DNA of 64,000 bases from Arthrobacter sp. YN (GTDB taxonomy: Bacteria > Actinomycetota > Actinomycetes > Actinomycetales > Micrococcaceae), in contig NZ_CP022436.1 in the NCBI RefSeq assembly GCF_002224285.1, positions 3,038,001-3,102,000 on the forward strand, written 5' to 3'. Both the position numbers and the translations under genes were made by a program. Positions 36,880 through 54,338 of this stretch are shown here, piece by piece; the first letter of the stretch is position 1, and every line of letters starts with the position of its first letter. The notes beneath the pieces were generated by a model. The model made no database searches. It saw only the letters and a program-made list of their open reading frames with translations, and had not been told where the DNA came from.

Positions 36880-36944
36880 AGTGTAGTCCCAGTGCTGGCG
36901 CGGATTATCCGGCCCCCTGAGAGGAATTAGGGAGAGTCAGGGTA

Positions 36945-36974
36945 TTGACAGGGTGTATATACACCCTGTAGTTT
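36945..36974 (+). promoter_or_regulatory. Early phage promoter overlapped by a perfect palindromic operator
   Basis: TTGACA at 36945-36950 and TAGTTT at 36969-36974 (18-bp spacer). The spacer is filled by a perfect 22-bp inverted repeat at 36948-36969 with core GGGTGTATATACACCC, so a dimeric repressor there would block the polymerase. TAGGGA-like boxes lie just upstream (36928, 36938). Confidence 0.75.
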
Positions 36975-37012
36975 TGTCTTATCGGAACAAGCCGAAGACG
37001 GAAGGCAAGACA

Positions 37013-37195
37013 ATGATCGCAGTAGAGAATCTCGAAGTCGGAATGATGATCATCCCGGAAGGACGCAAGCACGCCGTCGAGGTCATGAGCGTAGACAACT
37101 GGGGCAACGCGAACCTCTACAAAATCGGCCACTTCGGCAAGGGGTTCAATGTAACCGCCCTCCCCGCCGGCTCAATGGTCCGTCTCGCAGCATGA
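37013..37195 (+). CDS. Small early phage protein, paralogue of the 51751 gene
   Basis: 60 aa, beta-rich, with VENLEVGMMIIPEGRKHAVEVMSV. The same scaffold (V-x-x-L-x-x-G-x-x-x-IP-x-G-x-K-x-AVE-x-x-S) is in the protein at 51751-51981. Function unknown. First gene after the palindromic operator; ATG overlaps nothing upstream and follows GGAAGG. Confidence 0.75.
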   Translation: MIAVENLEVGMMIIPEGRKHAVEVMSVDNWGNANLYKIGHFGKGFNVTALPAGSMVRLAA

Positions 37196-37338
37196 ACAGT
37201 AAGGCAGAATTGCTCGTAATGGCGGCGGCTGCGATTCCCTACTTCCAGGAGCAGTGGGAGAAGAAGCCGAATGAATACACGCGGGGGCGCCTTGATAGCG
37301 CACTCCGCACACTCGAACGGATAGAGGAAATGAAGTGA
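37192..37338 (+). CDS. Hypothetical early phage protein, 48 aa
   Basis: Too short for most ORF lists. ATG overlaps the previous stop by four bases (ATGA) and its own stop overlaps the next GTG. Helical: AAAAIPYFQEQWEKKPNEY then ARRLDSAL-like helix ending RIEEMK. Coupling on both sides supports expression. Confidence 0.65.
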   Translation: MNSKAELLVMAAAAIPYFQEQWEKKPNEYTRGRLDSALRTLERIEEMK

Positions 37339-37502
37339 TCAACTACGCAGCGGTAGAGAGTGGTGCACGGCTTTATATCGAGGACGGTCGGTTCGGGATC
37401 CCCTGGGAGGATGCAACAGCAGATGAACGCGCTGAAGCCATGGCCAAAGTTCGCGCAATCCTCGAAGCCGCCATGCCCCACATGCTGGCGGGCCAGGCGT
37501 GA
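37335..37502 (+). CDS. Hypothetical early phage protein, 55 aa
   Basis: GTG start at 37335 in a GTGA overlap with the preceding stop; stop overlaps the start of the RHH gene. Residues 1-25 beta-like (YIEDGRFGIPWEDA), then a helix ERAEAMAKVRAILEAA. No family recognised. Confidence 0.6.
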   Translation: MINYAAVESGARLYIEDGRFGIPWEDATADERAEAMAKVRAILEAAMPHMLAGQA

Positions 37503-37669
37503 GTAAGGGGACTACCCACCGTACAGTCCGCATCGAAGATGGGCTATGGGATGACGCTAAGGCTGCCGCCAGCAAGAACGGCGACAGCCTTAGCGACGTA
37601 ATCAGGCAGGCACTGCAGAGATACGTGGCAGCTCATGATCAAGAATCAGAGCGTTCATCCTCAGACTGA
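37499..37669 (+). CDS. Ribbon-helix-helix (Arc/CopG-like) protein
   Basis: 56 aa. HRTVRIEDGLWDDAKAAA followed by GDSLSDVIRQALQRYVAAHD is the RHH pattern (one strand that enters the major groove, two helices). A natural candidate to bind the palindrome in front of this operon, or to act as excision/arbitration factor. GTGA overlap with the gene before. Its 3' 68 bases overlap the integrase 3' end on the other strand. Confidence 0.75.
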   Translation: MSKGTTHRTVRIEDGLWDDAKAAASKNGDSLSDVIRQALQRYVAAHDQESERSSSD

Positions 37670-38726
37670 CGTCATCAAGATCCTGGTCAAATAGCCCGGC
37701 GTACACGTCCAAGGTGATCTTGGCTGAGGCGTGCCCCAGCATCCGCTGTACCGACTTGACCGAGGCCCCGGATGAGATCGCCAACGACGCGGCAGTGTGT
37801 CGGAGGTCATGCACCCATAGGTCGGCCGGGAGCTTCGCTGCTTTCACAGCCGGGTTATAGGTGCGGCGCTTGAAGTTGTTGGACCGGAGCCATCCGCCAC
37901 GTGGGCCCGGGAACACGAGGTCATCCCGGGCGAGGCTTGCGGCCCGCCTGGTCACCCTCTCCATCACGTACCCTGGCACTGGCACGTCCCGGGGCTTCCC
38001 GTTCTTGGGCGGCCCCACTACCATCTTCCCGTCCACGTCAGTCACGGACCGGGCCACGGTGATGCGGCCACGCTCCAAGTGAAGGTCCTTCGCTCTCAGC
38101 TCTGCGGCTTCCCCAAATCGCAGACCAGTCATAGCCAGGAACCACACAAGGTCCGTATAGAAGGGATCGATCGACAGCGCCAGCTTCGATACCTCTGAGA
38201 CCTTGAGGTAGATATGCTCTCGCTTGTGGCCGCGGGGCAGGTTCACCCCAACGGCAGGGCTGTGCGGGATGCGGCCCTCTTCTACGCACCAGTTCAGGAA
38301 GTTGCGGAACCGGCCGTAGATGGTCTCCACGGTCCGGGCGGCTTTCTTCATCCCTGACACCCACTCTTGGATGTCGGCGCGGGTGATGTCCGCGACGATG
38401 CGGTTCTCCCAGTACGGCCGGATAGTGGCCCGCACGTCAGAGCGGGTGGCCGCCACGGTGGAGTCCCGCAAATGCAAGAGGGTGTCCATCCATGGATCCA
38501 GCAACTCCCCCACGTGGACCCTGCCGAGTTCCCGGGAGGTGTACGTGCCGGACCGTTGCCGGTGATCGATGCTTGTCAGGTGCGCCTGGGCGGCGTCCTT
38601 GAAAGCGAATGACGCTTTTTTCTCTTTGCCGTTCTCGTACCACACGGCTTGCCAGCGCTTGCCCTTCCCATAGAGAGGGGTGCGCGTCTTGTCTTTCCTC
38701 ACCCACCGATCATCGATGCGGCTCAT
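37602..38726 (-). CDS. int: Tyrosine-family phage integrase
   Basis: 374 aa. N-terminal AP2-like arm-binding region (RWQAVWYENGKEKKASF), SAM-like core-binding domain about 70-160, catalytic domain with Arg203 (TGLRFGE), Lys241 (PPKNGKPR), His306 and Arg309 (HDLRH), His332 (LGHAS) and Tyr342 (LDVYAGLF), so all active-site residues are present. Leftward, with its 3' end 720 bp from the tRNA-Val core it presumably recombines. Confidence 0.96.
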   Translation of the reverse strand: MSRIDDRWVRKDKTRTPLYGKGKRWQAVWYENGKEKKASFAFKDAAQAHLTSIDHRQRSGTYTSRELGRVHVGELLDPWMDTLLHLRDSTVAATRSDVRATIRPYWENRIVADITRADIQEWVSGMKKAARTVETIYGRFRNFLNWCVEEGRIPHSPAVGVNLPRGHKREHIYLKVSEVSKLALSIDPFYTDLVWFLAMTGLRFGEAAELRAKDLHLERGRITVARSVTDVDGKMVVGPPKNGKPRDVPVPGYVMERVTRRAASLARDDLVFPGPRGGWLRSNNFKRRTYNPAVKAAKLPADLWVHDLRHTAASLAISSGASVKSVQRMLGHASAKITLDVYAGLFDQDLDDVSLRMNALILDHELPRISAVPA

Positions 38727-39046
38727 TACTGAAGCTCATGTCCGACGAGTCGTTTCATGGTGGCCCAATCTTTGACGCTCAGGTGGTCTATGTAGGCTCG
38801 CACGATGCCAGGTGTCGCCCATAGTTCTCGGGCTACGCCGTCGATGGTGCGGTGTGAACGTGCTGCGTTCAAGAACTCCCGTGGGGAGATGAGCCTTTGG
38901 GCGGCCCACTCGTCTGCGAGTTCACATTTGACCGGGCAAACGGTCTTGTAGAAGTTGTGACCTGCGTTGTGCATCCGGCTTGGTGGCTGTCCGGATTGCT
39001 TCGAGGTGCTGTTTGTGTCGGTGCTGGTTGCGGGCTTGGTGTCCAA
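38726..39046 (-). CDS. ImmA/IrrE-like protein lacking the catalytic Glu
   Basis: 106 aa. CELADEWAAQRLISPREFLNAARSHRTIDGVARELWATPGIVRAYIDHL matches the region around the third zinc ligand of ImmA-type metallopeptidases. Where HExxH is expected the sequence is HNAGH, and the usual N-terminal part is replaced by a Ser/Thr/Gln-rich tail. ImmA cleaves a phage repressor on induction; this one may be regulatory only. Its position between int and the repressor fits. Stop overlaps the integrase start. Confidence 0.65.
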   Translation of the reverse strand: MDTKPATSTDTNSTSKQSGQPPSRMHNAGHNFYKTVCPVKCELADEWAAQRLISPREFLNAARSHRTIDGVARELWATPGIVRAYIDHLSVKDWATMKRLVGHELQ

Positions 39047-39110
39047 CGCGGCTGTTCCCCTTGATGTCTAACATTGGTCACCTTTGGTGGTGCCGAGGAT
39101 GACTTTACAG

Positions 39111-39130
39111 CCTTTCCCTACCTTTCCCTT
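39111..39130 (-). promoter_or_regulatory. Tandem TAGGGA-type boxes, 10-bp spacing
   Basis: CCTTTCCCTA directly repeated as CCTTTCCCTT, upstream of the ImmA-like gene and inside the interval after the repressor stop. On the minus strand they read AAGGGAAA and TAGGGAAA. Confidence 0.55.
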
Positions 39131-39134
39131 TTTG

Positions 39135-39581
39135 TCAGTGGTCAGTGCTAGGGGCTTCGCGCTCGTCTTTCAGCTTGGAAACTTCGACAGTCAAGTGACG
39201 AACGCGATACTGGAGTTCCATTAAAAGCTCTTCGGTGGTCAATTGTGACGCCTTTGTGACGGGTTTGCCGGTCTCGGCATCCAGCTCATCCCAAGATTCC
39301 TGCTGTGCACCAAGCTTCATGTCATCGGTGGTGACAAGCGACAGGTCTATGTCCTCGCGGCGATCCCAGATCTGTCGGATGGACATTGCACGCCAACCCA
39401 GAACCTTCTCAACTGCATGGAGTTTCGTGTCATGCAACAGCCGATCCCCGGTTTCGAGGGTCCGGAGGGTCTTGACGTCAATGCCGGCTTCCTTAGCAAA
39501 AACAACCTGCGTCTTCCCCTCCTGGACGCGTGCGGATGCAACTAAGCGGCCGATCATCTTCAAAGCTTCTATGTCGTTCAC
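39135..39581 (-). CDS. XRE-type HTH protein, probable immunity repressor
   Basis: 148 aa. Helix-turn-helix at about 9-60 (IGRLVASARVQEGKTQVVFAKEAGIDVKTLRTLETGDRLL split over five helices), then an acidic linker and a C-terminal coiled coil (LLMELQYRVRHLTVEVSKLKDE) that could dimerise. Divergent from the Cro-like gene across a 190-bp control region that contains three TAGGGA boxes. GTG start at 39581. Confidence 0.82.
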   Translation of the reverse strand: MNDIEALKMIGRLVASARVQEGKTQVVFAKEAGIDVKTLRTLETGDRLLHDTKLHAVEKVLGWRAMSIRQIWDRREDIDLSLVTTDDMKLGAQQESWDELDAETGKPVTKASQLTTEELLMELQYRVRHLTVEVSKLKDEREAPSTDH

Positions 39582-39602
39582 ATCCTCATCGTGTAGGAGA
39601 AG

Positions 39603-39771
39603 TTAGGGAATATCAACTGGGCAAACCGCCCAAGGTCACCCTTTAATTCGGGAAACATGTCCGGTAATTACGCCTTTGTAATTCAGGTATTCGGGCATGT
39701 ACCCGCGGGTATCGGGCATCTTTCCCTAAGGTTGGGTAGACCTTTCCCTAACTTTCCGCTAGATTGGGTAT
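39603..39771. promoter_or_regulatory. Immunity control region between repressor and Cro-like genes
   Basis: TTAGGGAA at 39603 faces the repressor; TTTCCCTA at 39721-39728 and 39743-39750 (22 bp apart) face the Cro-like gene, whose -10 is TAGATT at 39760-39765, followed by GGGTAT. The region also has repeated GGGTA/TACCC steps near 39690-39712. Layout is that of a phage operator with two opposing promoters. Confidence 0.7.
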
Positions 39772-40062
39772 GTGCCAACACCGACAAACCCGGCCCGCAG
39801 GGGGCCGCAGAAAACCTACCCTGAAGACCACGACTGGGAGCGCGTAGGCGCGACAGTCCGTGAGATCCGGATGGAGTTAAACCTGACCCAAGAGGAACTG
39901 GCAACCGCAATCGGTTACCGCGGCGCTCCCTCCATCAGTCAGATCGAATCCGGTCTCAGGCCCCTGACGAACTCAAAGCTGGTTGCTTTGGCCAAGTTCC
40001 TAGGGGTCCACCCGTCAGATATCCGCGGTACGAAACTCTCTGTGGTTAGGAGCTCGTCATGA
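39772..40062 (+). CDS. XRE-type HTH protein, Cro-like
   Basis: 96 aa. HTH from about 25 to 85: VGATVREIRMELNLTQEELATAIG with recognition part RGAPSISQIESGLRP, then TNSKLVALAKFLGV. GTG start lies seven bases from the TAGATT -10, so the message is leaderless. First gene of the rightward lytic-side operon. Confidence 0.82.
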   Translation: MPTPTNPARRGPQKTYPEDHDWERVGATVREIRMELNLTQEELATAIGYRGAPSISQIESGLRPLTNSKLVALAKFLGVHPSDIRGTKLSVVRSSS

Positions 40063-40328
40063 CACAGGCCATGGTCCTTGAAGACCGTACGTGGACCGAT
40101 GACGCGATGGACGTCCTTGCACAGGTAGCCAAGAGGGGTGAGCCCTTCACGGCGTACGCACTCACCCAGGCTGGGCTCCGAAACCCTCCGCATCCCAGCA
40201 TGTGGGGCACGTTGTTCCGGCATGCTGCAGAGCGCGGAGCCATCCGACCGGCGAAGGTCCCGTTTGTCCGGTCACCGCGCCCGGGCCGCAACGGCGGGGT
40301 CTGCGCCCAATGGAGGGCCGCACGATGA
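40059..40328 (+). CDS. Phage protein, possible winged-helix
   Basis: 89 aa, ATGA overlap with the Cro-like gene. Helical N-terminus, then GEPFTAYALTQAGLRNPPHPSMWGTLFRHAAERGAI and a basic hairpin, a layout seen in small phage winged-helix proteins of the replication/regulation region. Function unknown. Confidence 0.65.
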   Translation: MTQAMVLEDRTWTDDAMDVLAQVAKRGEPFTAYALTQAGLRNPPHPSMWGTLFRHAAERGAIRPAKVPFVRSPRPGRNGGVCAQWRAAR

Positions 40329-40525
40329 CCCGCACTGGAGACGCCACCGTGAAGCAGGTAGCCGAACACCTCGGCCACCACCCCGTAACCATCCGCACCA
40401 TGGCCCGCTCCGGCGAGTTCCCCGGAGCCTACAAGGGCGGCTCAGGGAAAAAGAACTCACCACTCCGCATCCCCTGGGCCGACGTGGACCGCTGGCGGGA
40501 ACGCCAGCCCCGCGCAAGCCAATGA
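40325..40525 (+). CDS. Excisionase-like HTH (MerR/AlpA type) protein
   Basis: 66 aa. TVKQVAEHLGHHPVTIRTMARSGEFPGAYKGG then LRIPWADVDRWRERQ is the excisionase/DNA-binding helix-wing pattern used by Xis and by plasmid AlpA proteins. ATGA overlap with the previous gene. A role in excision is inferred from fold. Confidence 0.78.
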   Translation: MTRTGDATVKQVAEHLGHHPVTIRTMARSGEFPGAYKGGSGKKNSPLRIPWADVDRWRERQPRASQ

Positions 40526-40797
40526 GTGCCGACATCCACCAGACCGTGCTGGCCGCACTCACTGAGGTGGCAGAGACGGAAGACTTCCTCACCGTTGTAG
40601 CGGCAGCAGTAACTGAAGCACTCACCACCGCGGGGTACTTCAAGGCGGCTGGCACGGAATATGCGATCCGCAGGGGGACTGTCATCGAGGAAATCGGGTT
40701 CAACACCGAGGGCCAGGCGATGAAGTGGGCAGAGACTCACCTCCCGAAGAACACCTTGTTTGAGATTCCGAAACGGCCCGTAGGGGTCTGGCAATAG
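40522..40797 (+). CDS. Hypothetical phage protein, 91 aa
   Basis: ATGA overlap with the excisionase-like gene. Helical N-terminal half (HQTVLAALTEVAETEDFLTVVAAAVTEAL), then a short alpha/beta part ending FEIPKRPVGVWQ. No family recognised. Confidence 0.6.
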   Translation: MSADIHQTVLAALTEVAETEDFLTVVAAAVTEALTTAGYFKAAGTEYAIRRGTVIEEIGFNTEGQAMKWAETHLPKNTLFEIPKRPVGVWQ

Positions 40798-40799
40798 AA

Positions 40800-40828
40800 G
40801 AAGGGCCCGGCAGCCACCGGACCCTTCA
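40800..40828 (+). terminator. Hairpin, possible terminator or processing site
   Basis: AAGGGCCCGG/CCGGACCCTT stem with one mismatch and CAGCCA loop in the 56-bp gap between two genes; no T run follows, so termination is uncertain. It is followed by CCAACACCGACAAA, a string also present at the start of the Cro-like gene. Confidence 0.45.
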
Positions 40829-40853
40829 AGTCACCAACACCGACAAAGGAAGA

Positions 40854-41243
40854 ATGATGACCAACTCTCAGATTACGCCACTGATGTTCGATCGGTCCAT
40901 GGCCACTCAGGTTGTCCGCTATGTGACGGGAACCTTCGCCGCTGAAGGGCCCAAGGACTACACAGAGGACGAACTCCAGACCCTCGCCCGGAAACTCTCG
41001 TTCATGACCGACTCCGATGTGCAGTGGACGGCGCTGGACCACCTCGTGACCACGATCCGTGAACTGGACGAACTGGACCGGGGAAACCATGACATGCACG
41101 AGTGCTGGAGGGACGGCACCGTGGACAACACTCTCTGGGTGCTGGACAACATTGAGGGGCGCATCAGCGAGTCCGTGGACTACGTGCTCATGACGGCCCG
41201 GTTCCAAGCCCGCTACGCCGATCTCCACCTGGCGGCGGCGTAA
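40854..41243 (+). CDS. Hypothetical phage protein, 129 aa
   Basis: AAAGGAAG RBS before ATGATG. Mainly helical and acidic (EDELQTLARKLSFMTDSDVQWTALDHLVTTIRELDELD), Trp-rich second half. Stop overlaps the next ATG (TAATG). No family recognised. Confidence 0.65.
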   Translation: MMTNSQITPLMFDRSMATQVVRYVTGTFAAEGPKDYTEDELQTLARKLSFMTDSDVQWTALDHLVTTIRELDELDRGNHDMHECWRDGTVDNTLWVLDNIEGRISESVDYVLMTARFQARYADLHLAAA

Positions 41244-41386
41244 TGAACGGCCTGATCTTCCTCAACGCCATCCTGGCCCTCGGATTCCTCCTAGCGATCC
41301 CGTGGGCCATCCGTGCCGACCACGCGGACGTACACCTTATGCACCGCGCCGGCTCCGGATGCAGGGACTGCGAGGACCTGTCATGA
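41243..41386 (+). CDS. Small membrane protein, 47 aa
   Basis: One hydrophobic helix at residues 3-22 (LIFLNAILALGFLLAIPWAI), then a short tail with GSGCRDCED, a single CxxC. TAATG overlap with the gene before and ATGA overlap with the one after support translation. Could be a phage membrane-modulating peptide; function unknown. Confidence 0.6.
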   Translation: MNGLIFLNAILALGFLLAIPWAIRADHADVHLMHRAGSGCRDCEDLS

Positions 41387-41583
41387 GCCTCACCCCGTAT
41401 GACCTCGAATGCACCTGCCTGGACGACGAACTGTTCATGTGCCGGGAATGCGGAGAGATAGGCGAAGAGATCGGTGGTTGCCCTGCCTGTTACGGAACCA
41501 TCGAGCTCGTCCCTGATGACACCCGCATGGAGGACTACCCAGCCACGGACTGCCCGCAACATGGAGGTTCCGACGATGAGTGA
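41383..41583 (+). CDS. Small Cys-rich putative zinc-binding protein
   Basis: 66 aa, acidic. Cys pattern C-x-C (ECTCLD), CRECGE and CPAC, consistent with one zinc ribbon, plus DCPQH near the end. ATGA overlaps on the upstream side and 8-nt overlap downstream. No family recognised. Confidence 0.6.
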   Translation: MSLTPYDLECTCLDDELFMCRECGEIGEEIGGCPACYGTIELVPDDTRMEDYPATDCPQHGGSDDE

Positions 41584-41764
41584 CAACAGGTTCTGCTACT
41601 GCGGTGACCGTTACCGCTGCGATGACTGCCACAAGGACGTCTGCTTCTGCATATGCGAGACGGACGGCGCACCCCAGGCCCGGGAGGAAGTTACCTCCGG
41701 CTGGGTGAACCCATCAACCGCCCGTATCGAAGCCTGGGCCAACAAGAGGGAGCTGACACGATGA
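41576..41764 (+). CDS. Small Cys-rich putative zinc-binding protein
   Basis: 62 aa. FCYCGDRYRCDDCHKDVCFCICE holds eight cysteines and one histidine in 24 residues, enough for two metal sites. Overlaps the genes before and after. Second of several Cys-rich small proteins in this prophage. Confidence 0.6.
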   Translation: MSDNRFCYCGDRYRCDDCHKDVCFCICETDGAPQAREEVTSGWVNPSTARIEAWANKRELTR

Positions 41765-43499: not shown

Positions 43500-43501
43500 G
43501 C

Positions 43502-43864: not shown

Positions 43865-44244
43865 GTAAGAACACTGGTTTCACGAAGGCGCAGAAGATCG
43901 CCATCACGGCCCGGGATCTGGATTGTGTCATCCACGGCGCTGGCGGGGACTGCGTTGGGGATCTCGTCCACCATCACCGGAAGGGCCGCGGACATGGCGG
44001 GGTGAAGTCCCGCAACCGGGTGGCTAACGGTTTGCTGGTTTGCTCCCGCTGGAATGACCTTGTGGAGTCCATGCCGGACCTCGCGGAACAGGCGCGCATG
44101 AACGGGTGGAAGGTCCGGTCTGATCTAGAGATAGACACCCGACCCGTGTACATCCCCCGCATTGGCCGGTTTGTCTATCTGGACGACGAGGGCCACTACA
44201 CAGATTTGCAACACAACATCATCACTAGTCAGGAAGCAGCGTAA
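43861..44244 (+). CDS. HNH-like nuclease-fold phage protein
   Basis: 127 aa. [31 protein letters not shown]...[13 protein letters not shown] carries two Cys, a His triplet, Asn and a further Cys in HNH order, though the second CxxC is reduced to a single Cys. Possibly a structure-specific or Holliday-junction nuclease beside SSB. Moderately confident in the fold only. Confidence 0.6.
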
Positions 44245-44246
44245 AC

Positions 44247-44857: not shown

Positions 44858-44900
44858 TAGGTGGTAAAAAGGGGAAAAATAGGTACTTCTGAGGTAGACT
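44858..44900 (+). promoter_or_regulatory. Phage promoter with two TAGGT boxes
   Basis: TAGGTGG at 44858 and TAGGTAC at 44880 (22 bp apart), -10 TAGACT at 44895-44900, eight bases after the second box. Same layout as the other phage promoters though the boxes are TAGGT rather than TAGGG. Confidence 0.6.
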
Positions 44901-44922
44901 TTACCTATCCAGATAAACCAAA

Positions 44923-44978
44923 AGCCCCGCCGATGCTGCGAACATCTGACGGGGCTAAACACCACTGATTGGAAGTGG
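44923..44978 (+). ncRNA. Two-hairpin leader RNA element, copy 1
   Basis: Hairpin I: AGCCCCG (44923) with CGGGGCT (44950), inner stem GATG/CATC, loop CTGCGAA. Hairpin II: CCACT (44962) with AGTGG (44974), loop GATTGGA, six bases before the ATG at 44985. Copy 2 is at 49552-49606. The inner stems differ but pair in both copies. Confidence 0.55.
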
Positions 44979-44984
44979 CTCTAA

Positions 44985-45197
44985 ATGCAGAGTAGCAACA
45001 GCATGCCCGACAATGCAATGCGACCCCTTGAGATCGTGTCGCAAGTAGCCAGGACGCACACCGAAACCAAAGCCCTTCTGATAAAGGCGTCGAAGGAAGC
45101 CAAGGATCAAGGTCACACCTATGAGCAGATCGGGCAAGCATCCGGCGTAAGCACTATGCAGGCATGGCGCCGAGTCAACGGCAAGGTCCAGGCATGA
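44985..45197 (+). CDS. Small HTH phage protein
   Basis: 70 aa. C-terminal HTH TYEQIGQASGVSTMQAWRRVNG (about 44-66); a Leu/Lys helix precedes it. Stop overlaps the methyltransferase start (ATGA). Could also start at the ATG at 45003. Expressed from the promoter and leader just upstream. Confidence 0.68.
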   Translation: MQSSNSMPDNAMRPLEIVSQVARTHTETKALLIKASKEAKDQGHTYEQIGQASGVSTMQAWRRVNGKVQA

Positions 45198-46710: not shown

Positions 46711-47563
46711 TCGTGCATCCATCAACACTGCCATCCACACGGACGATGACTGGCGGGAGCTGAACGTCATTGAGCAGCACCTGTACTGGCTGCTGATGAC
46801 CCACCCGAAGCTCAGCTATGTGGGCGTTGCGGACTGGCGGCCGGCGCGGCTGGCTGCCATGACCAAGGGCATGACGGCGGACACTATTCGCGCCGCTGCG
46901 GAGGGTCTCCAGGCGGCCCGTTTTGTGCTCATTGATGACGAGACTGAGGAAATCCTCATTCGGTCTTTCTTGAGGCATGACGGGCTCTTGAAGCAGCCGA
47001 AGCTATCCATCTCCATGGTGAACTCCTACGCGGATGTGGCTTCGAAGCGCATCCGCCAAGTCCTCACCTTTGAGTTGCAGCGACTCCATGGTGAGTTCCC
47101 CGAGTGGGCGGCCTTTAGGCAAGACAAGGTGATGTCTCTGGTCAAGGGTAAGGGTGCGGATATCTCAACATTTACCCAAGGGCTTACCCTTCCGTTTACC
47201 CCTGAAGAAACGCTGCCTTTTACCCTAAACCCTGACCGCCCGGAAGGGTTGCACACAGCTACAGCTACTACTACAGCTACCTCACCTAGCGGTGAGGGGG
47301 TGCAGGGGGAACGTAAGAAGCCGGAGCGTCCACTCCCTGCCAACTGGGTTCCGAACGGCGCGCACATCGAATATGCAAAGAGCCGTCTTTTGAATCTGGA
47401 CAGCGAAGCCGAGAGGTTTAGGCTTCACGCTCAGGCTAATGACCGTCGTCTCCGGGATTGGGATTCCGGGTTCCGGATGTGGCTGACCAAAGCCACGCCG
47501 ACACTGCCTAAGTCAGCAAGCCCCTGGTCCCCTGAATTCCACAAGATCGGGGCCCGGTCATGA
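46700..47563 (+). CDS. Phage replication initiation protein (DnaB-loader partner type)
   Basis: 287 aa from a TTG at 46700 with GGGGAGG nine bases upstream. N-terminal winged-helix region (NVIEQHLYWLLMTHPKLSYVGVADWRPARLAAMTKGMTADTIRAAAEGL, a typical phage initiator start), a Thr/Ala-rich linker with TATATTTATS, and a C-terminal domain WVPNGAHIEYAKSRLL like those of DnaT/phage O-type helicase loaders. Immediately upstream of dnaB, overlapping ATGA. Confidence 0.8.
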   Translation: MARDRASINTAIHTDDDWRELNVIEQHLYWLLMTHPKLSYVGVADWRPARLAAMTKGMTADTIRAAAEGLQAARFVLIDDETEEILIRSFLRHDGLLKQPKLSISMVNSYADVASKRIRQVLTFELQRLHGEFPEWAAFRQDKVMSLVKGKGADISTFTQGLTLPFTPEETLPFTLNPDRPEGLHTATATTTATSPSGEGVQGERKKPERPLPANWVPNGAHIEYAKSRLLNLDSEAERFRLHAQANDRRLRDWDSGFRMWLTKATPTLPKSASPWSPEFHKIGARS

Positions 47564-48863
47564 GCGAATCACTTACCCCGCCGCAGGACATCGCGGCTGA
47601 GCAGTCAACGCTGGGATCGATGCTCCTGAGCTCCGAGGCAATGCAGGACGTTGTGGAGATCGTGACGGGCCCGGACTTCTACCGGCCGGCGCATGAAACG
47701 ATCTTCCGGACAATGCTGGAGCTTCAGGGCCGGGGCGAGCCGGTGGACGTGATCACCGTGGGCGCCTCGCTGGTGGTCTCCGGGGAGGTTGACCGGGTGG
47801 GTGGAGTCCAGTACCTCCACGAGATCAGCCAGGCCTGCCCCACCCCGTCCGTGGGGTCGCATTACGCGCAGATCGTTGCCCGACACGCTACCCGCCGCCG
47901 GCTGGCCGCCGCCGCGCACAGAATCCGTGACATCGCCCACCAGCCTGGGGACGAGGCGGAGCTGGTGGAGCTGGCCCGCAAGGAAGTCGATGGGACATCA
48001 AAGGCGACCACGACAACAGTCCAGTCCTTCGGGGAAACCATCGATGTGATGTTGTCCCAGTTGGATGATGAACCGGATCAGGTGCCCACCCCATGGATGG
48101 CTGTGAATGACATCATCGGCGGCCTCCGTCCGGGTGGCTTGTATGTGGTGGGTGCCCGCCCGGCCGTGGGTAAGTCTGTGATCGCCCTGCAGTTGGCCAA
48201 AGCTTTGACGGCCAAGGGTGCTGTGGCGTTCTCGTCCCTTGAAATGTCTGAGGCGGATGTGCAGATCCGGGCTGTGGCCGCGGATCTGCGGATCGATCTG
48301 GCAAGGCTCATGAAGCGGGATCTGCTGGCGTCAGACTGGGCTGCGATCCGGGCACGCCGGGCCGCATGGCAGGACGTGCCACTGTTCATCGATGACAACT
48401 CCGGCGTGACATTGACGGACATCAAGCGTTTCGCCCGTTCGGTGAACCGCCGGCAGCCCCTCGCTGGGCTGGTGGTGGACTACCTGCAGCTCATGGCGCA
48501 GCCCGCCGGGGACAAGCGGCCCCGGCACGAGTTCGTGGCGGACATGTCCCGGCAATTGAAGATCCTGGCCATGGAGATGAAAATTCCCGTGATCGCACTG
48601 TCTCAGCTCAACCGAGGGTCCACCCAGCGAGCGGACAACATGCCTCAAATAAGCGACCTCCGCGAGTCTGGGCGGTGGAGCAGGACGCCGACGTGGTGAT
48701 CCTCCTGCACCGAGAAATCATGGGAGAGAACACCGGAGACCTGTCTATGCTGATCGCAAAGCAACGCAACGGGCCTACCGGACTCGCAGAGCTCGACTTC
48801 TGGGGCCACTACTCCATGGCGCTCGACAAGGGCGCCAGGCTCCCCATGAGGGCCGTAGCGTGA
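47560..48863 (+). CDS. dnaB: Replicative DNA helicase DnaB-like, frame broken by one base
   Basis: Joined frames give about 434 aa, normal for DnaB. N-terminal domain starts PPQDIAAEQSTLGSMLL; C-terminal RecA core has Walker A GARPAVGKS, FSSLEMS, Walker B LVVDYLQLM, ALSQLNRG and MPQISDLRESG. There frame 1 is lost and reaches a stop at 48699; the expected continuation VEQDADVVILLHRE is in the -1 frame to 48863, whose GTGA overlaps the next gene. One G more at GGG 48670-48672 repairs it. Confidence 0.87.
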
Positions 48864-49045
48864 GCCGCCGTAAGGGGACGCGGGTGTACCGGCTGGACAT
48901 TGTGCACGAGGCCACCCTGGAGCGCACAGCGGCCGTTATGGGCACGACTGACCGGGAGTTGCTGCGGAGGCTGGTGTGGGTTGCCGGCCGGTCACCTGAG
49001 GCATGGCAGGCGTTGGAGCGGGAAGTGGAGGCACTGGATGCGTGA
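48860..49045 (+). CDS. Small phage protein, possible ribbon-helix-helix
   Basis: 61 aa, GTG start in GTGA overlap with the helicase 3' end. GTRVYRLDIVHEATLERTAAVMGTTDRELLRRLVWVAG is compatible with a strand then two helices; assignment weak. Overlaps the resolvase gene. Confidence 0.55.
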   Translation: MSRRKGTRVYRLDIVHEATLERTAAVMGTTDRELLRRLVWVAGRSPEAWQALEREVEALDA

Positions 49046-49502
49046 GTGGACTGTGACCGTGCCGGCCCCGTATATCAAGCCGGTCCGGAAGCAGAAGACG
49101 GGGAAGATGTTCACCCGGAAGCCGTGGCTGAACTCGAATGACCGGGATCATTGGCGGGTGTTGTCTCCGATCCGGGCGGACTGGCGGAGGTTGGCGGCTG
49201 AGGCCGCGGCCGCTGCTGGCCTCCCCCAGGGCCTTGACCGGGTGACGATCACCGGGCGTGTGGTGAAAACCCGGGCCGGTGACTTCGACGCCATGAACTT
49301 CTACCCCACCGCCAAGGCCATCGTGGATGGGCTGATCGATCACGGGATGTGCGAGGACGACAACAACCGTTACGTGGAGGGCCCGTTCCTTTTCGAGGGC
49401 GGGAAGGGTGATCCGTGCATCGTCCTGACCATCCGTGAGGTGCCGGTTTCCCTGCCTTCGGGCGTGGATGACACGCCTTTGGGTGCGGTTTTAGGGAAAT
49501 AG
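49038..49502 (+). CDS. RusA-like Holliday junction resolvase
   Basis: 154 aa. TVTVPAPYIKPVRKQKTGKMFTR N-terminus, GRVVKTRAGDFDAMNFYPTAKAIVDGLIDHGMCEDDNNRYVEG with the three acidic positions of RusA (Asp-Asp and the later Asp-Asp pair), and PCIVLTIREV at the end. RusA enzymes cut phage four-way junctions after recombination. RusA usually has DPDN; DFDAMN here is a variant. Confidence 0.78.
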   Translation: MREWTVTVPAPYIKPVRKQKTGKMFTRKPWLNSNDRDHWRVLSPIRADWRRLAAEAAAAAGLPQGLDRVTITGRVVKTRAGDFDAMNFYPTAKAIVDGLIDHGMCEDDNNRYVEGPFLFEGGKGDPCIVLTIREVPVSLPSGVDDTPLGAVLGK

Positions 49503-49532
49503 ATGGAAAAATAGGGAAACTGTTGCTAGGCT
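49492..49532 (+). promoter_or_regulatory. Phage promoter with two TAGGGAAA boxes
   Basis: TAGGGAAA at 49492 and 49512 (20 bp apart), -10 TAGGCT at 49527-49532, followed by GGGTAT as in the Cro promoter. It lies at the 3' end of the resolvase gene. Confidence 0.7.
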
Positions 49533-49551
49533 GGGTATACCGACAAAGAGA

Positions 49552-49606
49552 AGCCCCCGCGACCACTGCAATGGTCCGGAGGCTATGACCAGGAAAGGAA
49601 CTCCTG
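49552..49606 (+). ncRNA. Two-hairpin leader RNA element, copy 2
   Basis: Hairpin I: AGCCCCCG (49552) with CGGAGGCT (49577), inner stem GACCA/TGGTC and loop CTGCAA. Hairpin II: CAGGA (49590)/TCCTG (49602) with the Shine-Dalgarno AAGGAAC in its loop, directly before the ATG at 49607. The Shine-Dalgarno is thus folded up, suggesting translational control. Confidence 0.55.
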
Positions 49607-49939
49607 ATGCACACCAGCCTAGCAACACTCCCGAACGTGGACTCTCCAACGAGTCCCGCAGGGATCGCCCCGTGCGCTAACCCGGAATGCGGGAAGCTCA
49701 CACGCTCATCGAAGATGAAGAGTGCGGACTACCCGGACACCATCGCCCGTGGCGGTGGCGGGATGTGCGTCACTTGCTGGAAGCGCTCCAAGCAGCCCTG
49801 CGAAGTGGCCAACCCGCTGAAGGCGCTCCAGCTCAGCCACACCATGGCCGGTCTTGGCTCTTTCATGGAAGCTCGCCGCCGGCGTGGCGTTCCTGCTGGC
49901 GGCCTGCGTTGCGAGTACCGCTTGGAGGAAGCAGCATGA
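49607..49939 (+). CDS. Cys-rich putative zinc-binding phage protein
   Basis: 110 aa. CANPECGKLTRSS and CVTCWKRSKQ give two CxxC pairs, a zinc ribbon; C-terminal basic tail. Only gene whose RBS is held in leader hairpin II. ATGA overlap downstream. Confidence 0.68.
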   Translation: MHTSLATLPNVDSPTSPAGIAPCANPECGKLTRSSKMKSADYPDTIARGGGGMCVTCWKRSKQPCEVANPLKALQLSHTMAGLGSFMEARRRRGVPAGGLRCEYRLEEAA

Positions 49940-50220
49940 CCCCGGAAGAGGTTGCTGAGTCCATGCTCAAGCGGGGCAGCACCGAAGTCACGGAATTCAA
50001 AGACCTCAAGGTGGGCTCACGTGTCCGACGCTCCGCCGAACAATGGGGCGAGGCCTACACCAAAGGCACCGGAACCATCGAGCGAATCTTCCACAAGCAA
50101 AACTCGTCCTGGGAACGGAAGTATGGCCGCCCTGACGTGGAGCTCATCGTCAAGCGCGACGACGGCGAGTACTCATACCTGGCTGACTACCACGTAGACC
50201 TTGCCGAGGTGCAGTCATGA
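49936..50220 (+). CDS. Hypothetical phage protein, 94 aa
   Basis: TEFKDLKVGSRVRRSAEQWGEAYTKGTGTIERIF looks like a small beta-barrel (SH3-like) with a basic face, then IVKRDDGEYSYLADYHVDL. Overlapping ends with neighbours. Not recognised. Confidence 0.6.
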   Translation: MTPEEVAESMLKRGSTEVTEFKDLKVGSRVRRSAEQWGEAYTKGTGTIERIFHKQNSSWERKYGRPDVELIVKRDDGEYSYLADYHVDLAEVQS

Positions 50221-50474
50221 GCACCGAAGAGCCGTCATACCTCGCTTTCGCCCGGGCTAACGTCCGTGACGCACAGCCCAGCTCACCGGCAGTCGTCCGT
50301 GAACTTGTGGCCCGCATCGACCGAAACGCAGCGAAACCCAACCCGGAAGCCGCCGTACAGGCCATCGAGCAGATCCGCGAGGCCGTGGACTTGCTCTTCA
50401 AGGGCCAGTCCACGCCGACCGAGGCAGTCCGCCAAATCGTAAAGCACCTGAGCTCATACGAGGTCCAGCCATGA
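50217..50474 (+). CDS. Hypothetical helical phage protein, 85 aa
   Basis: ATGA overlaps at both ends. All-helical (VVRELVARIDRNAAKPNPEAAVQAIEQIREAVDLLFKG). Not recognised. Confidence 0.6.
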   Translation: MSTEEPSYLAFARANVRDAQPSSPAVVRELVARIDRNAAKPNPEAAVQAIEQIREAVDLLFKGQSTPTEAVRQIVKHLSSYEVQP

Positions 50475-50902
50475 AGGCTCTGACTGTGAAGCAGCCGTGG
50501 GCTGACGCGATCATCCGGTTCGGTAAGGACGTGGAGAACCGTTCCCGCCCGACGAACTATCGGGGCCCGCTATTCATCCATGCTGGGGTTGCTGAGTCGA
50601 AGGAAGCGCGGGACTGGCCGGCGATGCGGGTTGCTTTCAAGCACCATGGGATCGTTCCTGATGACCCGATGATCGGGATGCCCCGCGGCCAGGTCATCGG
50701 AACCGTAGATGTCATCGACTGCCACTACTGGGAAGACTGCGCGAACCTCTGCGATGAAACAGTGTGCTCAGAGTGGGCCATGACTAAGCACTACCACTGG
50801 GTGTTGGCTAACCCCCAGCCGCTGGCACTGCCCTTCCCGATGACGGGCAAGCTTGGCATCTGGAACATGGAAGCCCCTGACTCGAAGTGGTACAGCGCAT
50901 GA
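50471..50902 (+). CDS. ASCH-domain protein
   Basis: 143 aa. Typical ASCH (PUA-like) start MKALTVKQPWADAIIRFGKDVENRS, then GPLFIHAGVAE, GMPRGQVIGTVDVIDC and HWVLANPQPLALPFPMTGKLGIW. ASCH domains bind RNA or modified nucleosides; some hydrolyse acetylated nucleosides. Role in the phage unknown. Confidence 0.88.
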   Translation: MKALTVKQPWADAIIRFGKDVENRSRPTNYRGPLFIHAGVAESKEARDWPAMRVAFKHHGIVPDDPMIGMPRGQVIGTVDVIDCHYWEDCANLCDETVCSEWAMTKHYHWVLANPQPLALPFPMTGKLGIWNMEAPDSKWYSA

Positions 50903-51237
50903 GCCCGCAGCGTGTGCAGCGGAAGCCCCTCGAACTGCACGTGTACCCGAAGCAATTCACGCGCACAGGGCAAGAGGTCTATGACCTCGGGCGGCCAACA
51001 ACAAGCTGGGGCGAAACGCTCACGCCAACCTGGGTCGTTGACATGGAAGCGCGGAACAAACACCTCACGGGACCCGAGCTTGCCGCTGAGCACTGGCTGT
51101 TCTGCTGGCTGTGGGAGAACAGCATCGCTGGCGATGACGGCTACGACGGGCACCCTGTGACACGGGAATACAGGCGCCGTGCCGATGTTATGGAGCGCTT
51201 CGCCACCCACCCGCACTACGACGAGGCCGACCAGTGA
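50899..51237 (+). CDS. Hypothetical phage protein, 112 aa
   Basis: ATGA overlap with the ASCH gene. Trp/His-rich (WGETLTPTWVVDMEARN, EHWLFCWLWENSIAGDDGYDG). Small conserved phage-type protein, function unknown. Confidence 0.62.
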   Translation: MSPQRVQRKPLELHVYPKQFTRTGQEVYDLGRPTTSWGETLTPTWVVDMEARNKHLTGPELAAEHWLFCWLWENSIAGDDGYDGHPVTREYRRRADVMERFATHPHYDEADQ

Positions 51238-51356
51238 CCCCCACGGAGCGTCTCGCGCAACTCGCCACGACGTGCCCGCACCTCGCCCGCAACCTGGGCC
51301 TACTCCCACCCGAGCAACTCCAAACCATCCTCACAGAGAAAGAACCCAAACGATGA
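51234..51356 (+). CDS. Small phage protein, 40 aa
   Basis: GTG start in GTGA overlap with the previous gene; stop overlaps the next ATG. PTERLAQLATTCPHLARNLGLLPPEQLQTIL has two helices. Missing from ordinary ORF lists because of size; coupling suggests it is real. Confidence 0.5.
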   Translation: MTPTERLAQLATTCPHLARNLGLLPPEQLQTILTEKEPKR

Positions 51357-51748
51357 GCGCACACCTGGACGCAACACCCATCTACCGCATCACAGAGGAA
51401 ATCCTAGGCGAGCGACTTCGCCAGCACGCCAAATGGGGCGAGCAGAACCACAGCAATGGCACTGGGCCTCATGAAGTACCGCTCATTGGCCTGTGGTACC
51501 GCGCAGACGCCTCTGACCCGCTTGAAGACTTCGATGCTAAAGACATCGCCACCGCAGCGAAGGCATCGACAGACCACGCAGCGAAACAAGGCACGCTCAC
51601 TTACGCTGACATCTTCCTCGAGGAAGTGTTTGAAGCTTTGGCCGAGGGCGACCCTGAGAAGCTGCGTCTGGAACTGATCCAGTGCGCTGCCGTCGCCACA
51701 GCGTGGGTCGAGAAGATCGACCGAGACAAAGCGAAGGCAGAGGACTGA
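51353..51748 (+). CDS. MazG-like NTP pyrophosphohydrolase-family protein
   Basis: 131 aa. GERLRQHAKWGEQNH, then DIFLEEVFEALAEGDPEKLRLELIQCAAVATAWVEKID with the EExxEA ... acidic/Glu pattern of all-alpha NTP-PPases common in actinophages. Probably hydrolyses nucleoside triphosphates or is a related structural homologue; activity not certain. Confidence 0.72.
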   Translation: MSAHLDATPIYRITEEILGERLRQHAKWGEQNHSNGTGPHEVPLIGLWYRADASDPLEDFDAKDIATAAKASTDHAAKQGTLTYADIFLEEVFEALAEGDPEKLRLELIQCAAVATAWVEKIDRDKAKAED

Positions 51749-51750
51749 TC

Positions 51751-51981
51751 GTGACCAAACAGAAGACCAAGACCATCCCTGTAGACGAGTTGGTCATAGG
51801 CGCGAAGTTCATTCCTGCCGGAAAGAAAAGGGCGGTCGAGATCCTGAGTATCGCGGACTTCACTCCGGCCCGGCTGGAAATGGTGTGCACCAGCCCTTAT
51901 GGCACGAGCATCGTCTACGTTTCCCGTTACGACACCGTCGAGGCTGTCATTCCTGCCACGATGAAAGCGGCTACGGCATGA
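51751..51981 (+). CDS. Paralogue of the early 37013 protein
   Basis: 76 aa, GTG start two bases after the MazG-like stop. VDELVIGAKFIPAGKKRAVEILSI aligns with the 37013 product (VENLEVGMMIIPEGRKHAVEVMSV) through the whole core. Beta-rich, function unknown. Overlaps the HNH gene start (ATGA). Confidence 0.68.
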   Translation: MTKQKTKTIPVDELVIGAKFIPAGKKRAVEILSIADFTPARLEMVCTSPYGTSIVYVSRYDTVEAVIPATMKAATA

Positions 51982-52478
51982 CCGCGGATCGTATCCCTGC
52001 CCTGCTTGAACCCATCCAAAACCGACGCCCTTCTACCCTTGAACGCTTCTGGTCAAAAGTGGTCAAGACCAGCGGATGCTGGGGGTGGAAGGCCGCTATC
52101 CGCGCTGACGGGTACGTGAACTTCTGGGACGGCGATGCGAGGAAGATGAAACGCGCTCACCGGTACGGGTATGAGGCTGTCAACGGGCCAGTTTCTCCGG
52201 ACTTAGTCCTGGACCACCTATGCCGGAACCGAAGCTGCGTCAACCCTGACCACCTGGAACCTGTTACGCAACAAACCAACGCCCTCCGAGGAATTGGGTT
52301 GCCGGCCATCAACGCTGAAAAGACACACTGCGTCAAAGGGCATGAGCTTGCAGGCCAGAACCTCTACATGGAAGGCACTGGCCGGAGGTGCGTTGCCTGC
52401 AGGAAAGATGCGGCAAGGCGGTACGAGGCGCGAAAGACGAGGGTCCGGTCAAGGGCCGCGCTCGGAGGTGAAGCATGA
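51978..52478 (+). CDS. HNH homing-type endonuclease
   Basis: 166 aa. ERFWSKVVKTSGCWGWKAAIRADGYVNFWDG then AHRYGYEAVNGPVSPDLVLDHLCRNRSCVNPDHLEPVTQQTNALRG is the HNH_3 group with DH, N and H active positions, followed by a Cys/His module CVKGHELAGQN...CVACRK. Free-standing, coupled to genes on both sides; may be a mobile insertion or part of packaging. Confidence 0.9.
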   Translation: MTADRIPALLEPIQNRRPSTLERFWSKVVKTSGCWGWKAAIRADGYVNFWDGDARKMKRAHRYGYEAVNGPVSPDLVLDHLCRNRSCVNPDHLEPVTQQTNALRGIGLPAINAEKTHCVKGHELAGQNLYMEGTGRRCVACRKDAARRYEARKTRVRSRAALGGEA

Positions 52479-52734
52479 GCCACCAGACCTCTGAGGAAGC
52501 CCTTGACGCCGGGGTGGACCTGAATGAACTCATGGCCGGCGAATGGAAACCCACACCCGTGGACCCGCCCGTGGCCACCGGGTACGGCACGAAACACACC
52601 GACCTACTCACCGGCGCACAAGTCGCCCGGGAGTTCGACAACACCGGCCGGTTACTCAACGAGTGGCGGAAAGCCCCGGCGGAGACAAATGGGTGCCCGT
52701 GAAGCTCTACACCACCTACCGGAGACAAGCGTGA
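52475..52734 (+). CDS. Hypothetical phage protein, frame broken near the 3' end
   Basis: Frame 1 gives 75 aa ending AETNGCP. One base more in CCCCGGCGG (52674-52682) would give ...KAPGGDKWVPVKLYTTYRRQA, whose stop at 52732-52734 overlaps the next GTG as elsewhere in the operon. N-terminal EEALDAGVDLNELMAGEW, TGAQVAREFDNTGRLLNEWRK. Not recognised; the repaired form is favoured. Confidence 0.6.
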
Positions 52735-53003
52735 GCCGCCAAGAAGCTGCAGCACGGGCGATAGCGGAGCAGGACAGGCGCCGCCTGAGCTCGTTCCACC
52801 AAGCACAGGCACGGGACGCACTCGCCGCCGCTGACGCGGTGATGTTCTCTGACGAAGCCATGGAACGGGCGGCAGTGGCCCTCTACAACTTAGAGTTTCC
52901 ATGTTCTCTAATAACTGATCTGTCGGAACTTCTGGAATGGCGTCGAGAACAGTTGTTACATCAGGCCAGCATCGTGGTGGCTGCTTTGAAGGGAGAGCAA
53001 TGA
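52731..53003 (+). CDS. Hypothetical helical phage protein, 90 aa
   Basis: GTG start. Charged helices (AAARAIAEQDRRRLSSFHQAQARDALAAADAVMFSDEAMERAAVALYNL in two parts). Stop overlaps the next ATG. Not recognised. Confidence 0.6.
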   Translation: MSRQEAAARAIAEQDRRRLSSFHQAQARDALAAADAVMFSDEAMERAAVALYNLEFPCSLITDLSELLEWRREQLLHQASIVVAALKGEQ

Positions 53004-53140
53004 GCCGGGCTAAGCGTGCGTGTGATTGCGTCTGCCACAAGCTGGGCTACGTCTCCTGTGGTGGCGGGTGACCAGACGATCCACTCTGGCATGCGGCCGA
53101 GCAGGAGCTCGCTGACGACTACGAGAGGAATGAGCATTGA
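53000..53140 (+). CDS. Small Cys-rich protein interrupted by an in-frame UGA
   Basis: Residues 1-23 read MSRAKRACDCVCHKLGYVSC then GGG, UGA at 53069-53071, and the same frame goes on PDDPLWHAAEQELADDYERNEH to the stop at 53138. The Cys spacing (DC-VC ... SC-GGG-?-PDD) predicts a Cys at the UGA. ATGA overlap with the gene before and 11-nt overlap with the next show that the long form is the natural gene. Confidence 0.5.
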
Positions 53141-53324
53141 GCGCGGTAAGCCGCCTCGAATACCGGGCGGATGCAGTAACCACGCCTGCGTCTGCTGGAC
53201 CGCGCCACCGCCGCCGTGCCTGAAGTTCCAGTACTACTTCACATTCCACTGCGCCAGGTGCGGATGGGAGCGCCACTCTCATGACCGCCCGCCACTACTC
53301 CATAACGGGAGTAAACCACGATGA
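53130..53324 (+). CDS. Small Cys-rich putative zinc-binding protein
   Basis: 64 aa. GGCSNHACVCWTAPPPPCLKF and HCARCGWERHSHDRPP give at least five cysteines and three histidines. Overlaps the UGA-containing gene. No family recognised. Confidence 0.55.
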   Translation: MSIERGKPPRIPGGCSNHACVCWTAPPPPCLKFQYYFTFHCARCGWERHSHDRPPLLHNGSKPR

Positions 53325-53339
53325 GGCAAAGGAGCCGTC

Positions 53340-53489
53340 ATGTACTACTGCCCCACGTGCAGTCACCACCACGGGAAGGAAGGTGCCTGGCTGAGGTGCG
53401 GGGCGGTGGTGCATGACCGGGCCACGGACGGGGCGAGTAAGTGCGGGTGCGTTGGGGAAATCGCCCGCTTGAAAAGTGCCCAAAAATAG
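53340..53489 (+). CDS. Small Cys-rich putative zinc ribbon, 49 aa
   Basis: AAAGGAG RBS six bases upstream. YYCPTCSHHHGKEG, LRCGAV and SKCGCVG form a likely zinc ribbon. The stop lies inside the first TAGGGA box of the next promoter. Confidence 0.55.
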   Translation: MYYCPTCSHHHGKEGAWLRCGAVVHDRATDGASKCGCVGEIARLKSAQK

Positions 53490-53517
53490 GGAATTGTAGG
53501 GAGTTTTCGCCTATAAT
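53487..53517 (+). promoter_or_regulatory. Phage promoter with two TAGGGA boxes and TATAAT
   Basis: TAGGGAA at 53487 and TAGGGAG at 53497 (10 bp), TATAAT at 53512-53517, then ATG at 53524: a leaderless start. Confidence 0.72.
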
Positions 53518-53523
53518 TGGACT

Positions 53524-54323
53524 ATGACTTGTGGCGCATGCGGTGGGGGAACAGGCGACGGACAACACCTCTGCGCGAGGTGCACGCAACTACTGGAGCA
53601 AGACCTCGCAGAGCTCAACGAACTGTGGGACGACCTCCAGGTCACCGTGGCGAAGCTCGACAAGGGAGCGGACAGCGTTGGCACCTCTGGAGGGCACGCC
53701 GGATCGTCCGAACCCATCAACCTCACCGCATCCGACAGGGCACGAACCCTCACGGAAATCCTCATCGGCTGGGCCCATGCACTCGGCCACTCCACCCACA
53801 CCGCGCTCCAAGCCTCCGACGTGCTGTTCTCACAGATCCGGGAAGTACGCCGGCAGGATTGGGCGCCGGTACTGAAAGAGGAACTCCACACCACCATGGG
53901 CAATGCCGGGCCGCCACGGACCGGGCAGCGGAGCTTATTGTTATCGGCCGGTGCCAGACCGTCATCGAGGGCCTGCGCTGCCCCGATGAGGTGAAAGCGG
54001 TACAAGGCCAGCCGACAGGCCGGTGCCGGACCTGCGGAGAAACGGTAGACGTCCAGGAACACCAGCTATGGATGATCGCCAGCGCCTGGCACATCACGGA
54101 ACCACTGCCGCACATCCTGCGGGCACTCAAGCACTCCCACCACCTCAGCATCCCGTTGAACCGGGTAGAGCGCTGGGTGGACCGCGGCAAGCTCCAGCCA
54201 ACCGCCCGGACCAAGCGCGGGAACCTCTTCACTCCGGCTGCTGTGATCGAAGCGTACCGAGGAACCCCCACAGGGAAGAGGGACACAAGGATGAATTCCC
54301 TACAAATCCCCCACATTCCCTAA
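53524..54323 (+). CDS. Zinc-finger/HTH phage protein, frame broken by one base
   Basis: About 266 aa when joined. N-terminal CGACGGGTGDGQHLCARC is a zinc site, followed by a helical domain (DLAELNELWDDLQVTVAKL; GWAHALGHSTHTALQASDVLF). Frame 1 is lost near 53908-53916; the -1 frame has ELIVIGRCQTVIEGLRCPDEVKAV...GRCRTCGETVDV, a second zinc ribbon, then an HTH (SIPLNRVERWVDRGKLQP). One C/G more would close it. Similar proteins sit just before terminase genes in actinophages; likely a late regulator. Confidence 0.7.
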
Positions 54324-54338
54324 TTTTGTGGGTATAGT
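54295..54338 (+). promoter_or_regulatory. Promoter of the tRNA/packaging region with two TTCCCTA boxes
   Basis: ATTCCCTA at 54295 and 54315 (20 bp) and TATAGT at 54333-54338, with TGGGTAT around it. No CDS follows for 630 bp. Confidence 0.65.

Follow-up and report, generated by a model that had tools for sequence, protein, structure and literature searches.

Boxes at the putative prophage promoters

In the 64,000-nucleotide stretch of the Arthrobacter sp. YN genome analysed here (the window; contig NZ_CP022436.1, positions 3,038,001 to 3,102,000), a prophage carries short TAGGGA boxes, often in pairs, next to promoter-like sequences, and the question is which protein would bind these boxes and to what effect. 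Judging from sequence comparisons, they are probably short, asymmetric direct-repeat operators of the 148-amino-acid XRE repressor of the prophage, which would thus control a dispersed lysogeny regulon. All coordinates are window positions, carried on to the right beyond the window for the far end of the prophage; the host genome was a single contig of 5,063,552 bases. Two divergent regulator genes are central to the question and are named here by their coordinates.

39135..39581, minus strand: 148-amino-acid XRE (HTH_3) protein, the proposed repressor, with a GTG start; PF01381 at 24.5 bits (cut-off 23); modelled as a helix-turn-helix (HTH) followed by a linker and a long helix at the C terminus
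39772..40062, plus strand: 96-amino-acid Cro-like HTH_3 protein, with a GTG start 6 bp past the -10; PF01381 at 49.1 bits

The prophage was compared with L065, an IMG/VR phage record largely collinear with it, for which the data covered 38,549 of 41,701 bases. The L065 repressor was 62-63% identical to 39135 and its Cro-like protein 54.8% identical to 39772. The boxes, whose consensus was about WTAGGGAAW, were located as follows, the promoters themselves being inferred and their -10 hexamers picked by eye.

39115..39130, minus strand: P39.1 boxes TAGGGA (39115-39120) and AAGGGA (39125-39130), 10 bp apart; -10 TAAAGT (39102-39107); conserved in L065
39604..39609, plus strand: single PRM box, flanked by -35 TTGATA (39611-39616) and -10 CACGAT (39588-39593), both on the minus strand; conserved in L065
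39723..39728, minus strand: upstream PR box, with 22 bp to the second one; no conservation in L065
39745..39750, minus strand: PR box, flanked by -35 TAGACC (39737-39742) and -10 TAGATT (39760-39765); conserved in L065
44870..44885, plus strand: P44.9 degenerate boxes at 44870 (13.6 bits) and 44880, 10 bp apart; -10 TAGACT (44895-44900); aligned with TAGGGA/TAGGGA in L065
49492..49517, plus strand: P49.5 boxes at 49492 and 49512, 20 bp apart; -10 TAGGCT (49527-49532); L065 keeps the 20-bp pair, a -35-like TGGAAA and the -10
53487..53502, plus strand: P53.5 boxes at 53487 and 53497, 10 bp apart; -10 TATAAT (53512-53517), ATG at 53524; CAGGGA/TAGGGA in L065
54297..54322, minus strand: P54.3 boxes at 54297 and 54317, 20 bp apart; -10 TATAGT (54333-54338); upstream of tRNA and terminase genes; L065 has boxes there in another arrangement
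36928..36933, plus strand: exact TAGGGA, scoring 13.8 bits against the L065 matrix, and next to it a degenerate box at 36938

The TAGGGA core was exact at 36928, 39604, 49492, 49512, 53487 and 53497 on the plus strand and at 39115, 39723, 39745, 54297 and 54317 on the minus strand. The box at 36938 read CAGGGT and the one at 39125 AAGGGA, and a weak middle box was seen at 49502 within P49.5. Every box listed in the original prediction was present, at or within 2 bp of the position given there, and the spacings of 22, 20, 10 and 20 bp between exact TAGGGA pairs were borne out. Its 22-bp pair at 44858/44880 was not upheld, since the TAGGT boxes scored below 7 bits and it was the 10-bp pair 44870/44880 that aligned with TAGGGA/TAGGGA in L065. 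The box at 36928, outside the seven places compared with L065, counts as a weak member of the set.

The box nearest to the -10 hexamer ended 9 bp before it at PR, P44.9, P49.5 and P53.5, 10 bp at PRM and P54.3 and 7 bp at the leftward P39.1, as measured descriptively from the -10s chosen by eye. The five rightward values (9, 9, 9, 9 and 10) agreed with the 8-10 bases proposed earlier. The orientation of the boxes at the rightward promoters was mixed, being plus at P44.9, P49.5 and P53.5 and minus at PR and P54.3. All eight exact pairs of the two phages (spacings of 20, 10, 20 and 22 bp in the prophage and 9, 10, 20 and 10 bp in L065) fell within 1.5 bp of whole helical turns, for which the chance, computed post hoc, was about 4e-4. 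Several of these promoters would give nearly leaderless mRNAs. In the leaders of P44.9 and P49.5 (44895-45000 and 49527-49640), hairpins were predicted soon after the start, and likewise in L065 with partly different bases.

A TGGGTAT sequence, said earlier to be shared by three promoters, was indeed present in three promoters here and in none of the aligned L065 promoters, so it was rejected as a common promoter element.

Conservation in a related phage and abundance in host DNA

One-by-one alignment placed boxes at the same site in both phages at seven promoters (P39.1, PRM, PR, P44.9, P49.5, P53.5 and P54.3); the 10-bp pair was retained at P39.1 and P53.5. The place and often the spacing of the boxes were kept between the two phages while the flanking bases differed. 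L065 also had boxes without a counterpart here, at 15393, at 25813 and as an opposite-facing pair at 19898/19907 (flipped coordinates).

A weight matrix was built from 16 L065 sites chosen by box and place, and it is therefore independent of this prophage and not of the hypothesis. It was applied to the prophage and to 409,900 bp from the host, counting as direct pairs those 8-36 bp apart. At 9 bits the prophage had 22 single hits and the host sequence 42, a density 5.1 times higher in the former; six direct pairs (three of them from the P49.5 triple) were present in the prophage and none in the host. The direct pairs numbered seven and one at 7 bits, and four and none at 10 bits, whereas opposite-strand pairs numbered two in the prophage and one in the host at 7 bits and were absent from both above that. 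Equal density in host DNA, which would have spoken against the original prediction, was thus not what we found, and the near absence of direct pairs from host DNA led us to reject the boxes as a host promoter element.

Counting exact sequences gave a similar distribution. The pattern TAGGGA-N4..30-TAGGGA (same strand, 10-36 bp start to start) occurred six times in the genome and four of these were in the prophage (binomial P 7e-8, for a hexamer picked after the fact); the two remaining pairs were spaced 17 and 18 bp, out of step with the helix. Among 59 genomes, our own included, 35 had a match to this pattern, and 31 of the 35 had one or two. The reversed control pattern gave 14 pairs genome-wide, so the TAGGGA pair is not rare as such in the genome; it is its clustering in the prophage that is unusual. 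Hexamers were also ranked without bias by their number of pairs on one strand at 8-24 bp, leaving out palindromes and self-overlapping sequences; TAGGGA came first in L065 and second in the prophage, behind GGGTAA, whose rank derived from a short 12-bp array at 47172-47220 in the RepA-like gene. The prophage had 17 exact TAGGGA copies: 10 at the named promoters, the one at 36928 and six elsewhere. In Gordonia phage Murp, the switch region had TTCCC repeats, but only two exact cores were found in 30 kb.

The putative repressor and its relatives

The 39135 protein belonged to the XRE/HTH_3 family, as indicated by its score above the curated Pfam cut-off and by a helical HTH domain in its AlphaFold model. 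This model, made from 18 sequences (mean pLDDT 77.5, pTM 0.59), had a confident HTH domain, an unconfident stretch at residues 92-110 (pLDDT under 50) and a helix at 116-142. We infer a tethered dimer, formed via the C-terminal helix, that could bind direct repeats separated by one or two helical turns; the model is of a monomer, which by its nature shows neither dimerisation nor the use of direct repeats. Among the fold matches listed from the PDB, C.BclI led, and SinR chains came below it (best E value 1.8e-3).

The 39135 family also had chromosomal members, with identities of 36-38%, and 40 of 206 genomes of the genus gave some match at an E value of 1e-5 (our own genome and weak partial matches included). 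We read 31 of these chromosomal loci (4 from one search and 27 from another, leaving out a few hits for which there was no locus, e.g. G274 and G454) and found before the gene the sequence TTRCCYA-N3-TTGCCTA, a repeat with copies 10 bp apart. The second copy was TTGCCTA in 30 of the 31 loci (TTACCTA in L025) and the first copy fitted in 30 (all except L067). On the same strand, the phage box reads TTCCCTA. Across 61 genomes, TAGGCAANNNTRGGYAA occurred 10 times, eight of them beside a 39135 relative, with two further copies in G244 and G276, and its reversed control once; having been designed from the chromosomal loci, it shows rarity elsewhere and is no independent discovery. The host's own chromosome carries one such relative (480528-480914 of its contig), with a TTGCCTA direct repeat before it, and the family is present in part of the genus.

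G342 and G245 were covered by hexamer ranking, and no box was obtained for the distant relative G080. Two scans of genome contigs confirmed no relative. A Paenarthrobacter nicotinovorans contig, by contrast, codes for close relatives of both regulators (P0004 and P0010). In G159 (L098/L099), three of the nine TAGGAA/TTCCTA copies in 38 kb fell within 60 bp before a distant repressor relative, at about 150-205 bp upstream of the match to 39135. Protein searches of annotated phages returned no match with 39135 and only one weak match, in Murp, with P0007.

Taken together, the boxes at orthologous places in L065, the box in the promoter of 39135 itself and the similar direct repeat before the genes of its chromosomal relatives make 39135 the likely binder, in line with the earlier suggestion that it is the repressor acting on these operators.

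Proposed mechanism and alternatives

In the mechanism that we propose, each box would be bound by one HTH of 39135, and 39135, once in place, would occupy the stretch immediately upstream of the -10 and block access of RNA polymerase. In a lysogen, PR, P44.9, P49.5, P53.5 and the late and tRNA promoter P54.3 would be silenced, the leftward promoter of the 38726 gene and the integrase gene would be damped, and the repressor's own promoter would be damped through its single box. The Cro-like 39772 protein would act mainly via a different element, GTAATTAC.

Several observations weigh against this repressor regulon. The upstream PR box and the arrangement at P54.3 were not kept in L065, and single TAGGGA copies were also found outside promoters and in host DNA. 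Distant relatives of 39135 backed the proposal only partly: TAGGAA/TTCCYA repeats were suggestive near G159 and near G498 and doubtful near G427, and no clear ones were seen near G183 or G114. The Cro-like protein is conserved as well and could share the boxes. Finally, P39.1, P44.9 and P53.5 matched the -35 hexamer at best at 2 or 3 of 6 positions, and a box, the second one, 10 bp upstream of the first, covered the site of the -35, an arrangement found at activated promoters.

Because these -35 sequences are poor, activation or dual action was retained as a rival explanation, by which 39772, or 39135 in a dual role, would bind the tandem boxes over the -35 region and recruit RNA polymerase; lambda CII activates at direct repeats 10 bp apart, in promoters without a -35. 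We consider such activation unlikely, however, since PR and PRM had 4 or 5 of 6 -35 matches with the box behind them, the boxes face either way, poor -35 sequences are common among actinobacterial promoters, and the activation of late genes by a lysogeny protein makes little sense. The mixed orientation together with the constant distance to the -10 is better suited to a blocker than to an activator.

A second rival reading assigns the boxes to the Cro-like 39772 protein, either exclusively or jointly with 39135, much as Cro and CI of lambda use common operators; the original prediction had named a Cro-like factor as one of two possible binders. The boxes flank its gene, and the protein is conserved together with them in L065. 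Such a role seems rather improbable, since a separate candidate element was found:

39664..39671, no strand assigned: GTAATTAC, candidate site of the Cro-like protein; sole prophage copy; counterparts at the corresponding place in L065 and Murp

In each of three phages that encode a Cro-like relative, a copy of this element separated the two divergent regulator genes (at 10527 in flipped L065 and at 14908 in L066). It occurred once in the prophage, twice in the 38,549 bases of L065 and once in 51 kb of Murp, which makes it a candidate operator of the Cro-like protein. The direct repeat before the genes of chromosomal 39135 relatives argues in the same direction. In the stretches examined around two more Cro-like matches (L112 and L113), no TAGGGA, TCCCTA or GTAATTAC was found, and a search for the Cro-like family in 245 genomes at an E value of 1e-8 gave none besides our own, with no search for a Cro-like partner at the chromosomal loci beyond that.

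That the boxes are a by-product of A- and G-rich phage intergenic DNA or of ordinary promoter sequence, with no dedicated regulator, would account for the control pairs and the stray single copies, but this reading is largely refuted by the concentration of pairs in the prophage, their absence at 9 bits from 410 kb of host sequence scanned with the matrix of another phage, and box places, and often spacings, kept despite differing flanks.

A broader and speculative scheme, which we also hold to be unlikely, would have one regulator family, in phages and in chromosomes of the host genus, read tandem TAGG-N-AA half-sites at a phase of about 10 bp through flexibly tethered HTHs. A single core base would differ from protein to protein, giving TAGGGAA for the phages, TAGGCAA for the chromosomal gene and perhaps a TAGGAA-like form in another genus, and the phage protein would repress the promoters with a -35 and activate or remodel those without.

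Comparison with known repressor systems

Among the validated actinobacteriophage repressors, biochemical characterisation had by 2022 covered only those from clusters A and G (PMC9283540). The original prediction had likened the boxes to the stoperators of mycobacteriophage L5. Cluster A phages do have many asymmetric repressor sites across the genome, and this part of the likeness stands. However, the L5 sites are of 13 bp, their orientation correlates with transcription, with repression lost on reversal, and the repressor has two DNA-binding domains (PMC9283540), whereas the boxes here are of 6-8 bp and occur at rightward promoters in both orientations, and the 39135 model has a single HTH and no second domain. 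L5-type sites are also placed in short gaps between genes, away from promoters; here the pairs lie at promoter-like places and six of the 17 exact single cores elsewhere. On the best reading, this is not a stoperator system of the L5 type.

The P2 C, P1 C1 and SinR proteins are closer analogies. P2 C is a small HTH repressor of an early promoter that uses a pair of asymmetric direct repeats of 8 bp, spaced 22 bp from centre to centre (PMC4752584); spacings of this order (20-22 bp) were seen at PR, P49.5 and P54.3, and of 10 bp at the others. In P2 the repeats lie on either side of the -10 of a single promoter, whereas here the boxes are upstream of the -10 at several promoters. None of the three PDB sequence matches of 39135 at an E value of 0.01 or better was P2 C, which was likewise absent among the best 50 of 561 fold matches. 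The P1 C1 repressor has 22 asymmetric operators dispersed over the genome (PMC8546580), but these are of 17 bp and of another sequence, the comparison covering the layout of the sites. SinR of Bacillus subtilis binds a 7-bp asymmetric box present at promoters in several copies and orientations, and it combines an HTH with a separate multimerisation domain (PMC3163267); it differs in being a host regulator that binds inverted pairs best and tandem sites no better than a single one.

Each element is already known by itself: operators that are dispersed and asymmetric, operators built of direct repeats, and small XRE repressors. What appears to be new is that a proposed regulon, shared by two phages, unites them and has a chromosomal counterpart with a shifted box; a limited literature search found no earlier account of such a regulon. 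If our proposal is true, this is a compact lysogeny circuit comprising a single small repressor, a short box, seven promoters and a rule of helical phasing, and the chromosomal relative, with its box shifted by one base, is a natural experiment on specificity change in an XRE recognition helix.

Other features of the prophage

The prophage spanned 41,960 bp and was bounded by a 47-bp exact direct repeat starting at 36833 and 78746. Further features at its left end were the following.

36833..36879, no strand assigned: attL core, left prophage end; the other copy, at 78746-78792, overlaps a tRNA-Val gene (1746-1819 of L003)
37602..38726, minus strand: tyrosine integrase (PF00589)
38726..39046, minus strand: 106-amino-acid protein between the repressor and integrase genes, without a Pfam match; all-helical model

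A box beside the att core (78735, and 8376 in flipped L065) was conserved, but it adjoins an inverted repeat next to the core and is probably incidental. The integrase, the 106-amino-acid protein and the XRE protein are encoded leftward; the rightward genes encode the Cro-like protein, an excisionase-like protein, SSB, a match to a RepA-like initiator, a DnaB-like helicase, tRNAs and terminase. From its gene order and an HxxGH motif, the 38726 protein had been guessed to be an ImmA-like protease, which was rejected as no Pfam match appeared even at an E value of 10 and the model was all-helical. This small conserved protein carries an H-x3-H-x6-C-x3-C motif, possibly a zinc site.

The open reading frame of the DnaB-like helicase (47560-48699) ended short of the end of the DnaB_C profile, with a typical continuation in another frame; the gene looks frameshifted, which may mean a defective prophage or a sequence error. 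The array at 47172-47220 consists of GGGTAA/TTACCC repeats and may represent replication iterons. An additional tRNA was found at 54581-54653 with Rfam (32.5 bits, gathering threshold 29), having been missed by ARAGORN. At 36945-36969, TTGACA was followed by ACAGGGTGTATATACACCCTGT (36948-36969), which is a perfect palindrome; a small rightward operon lies downstream, and its last gene (37499-37669) we take to be ribbon-helix-helix-like.

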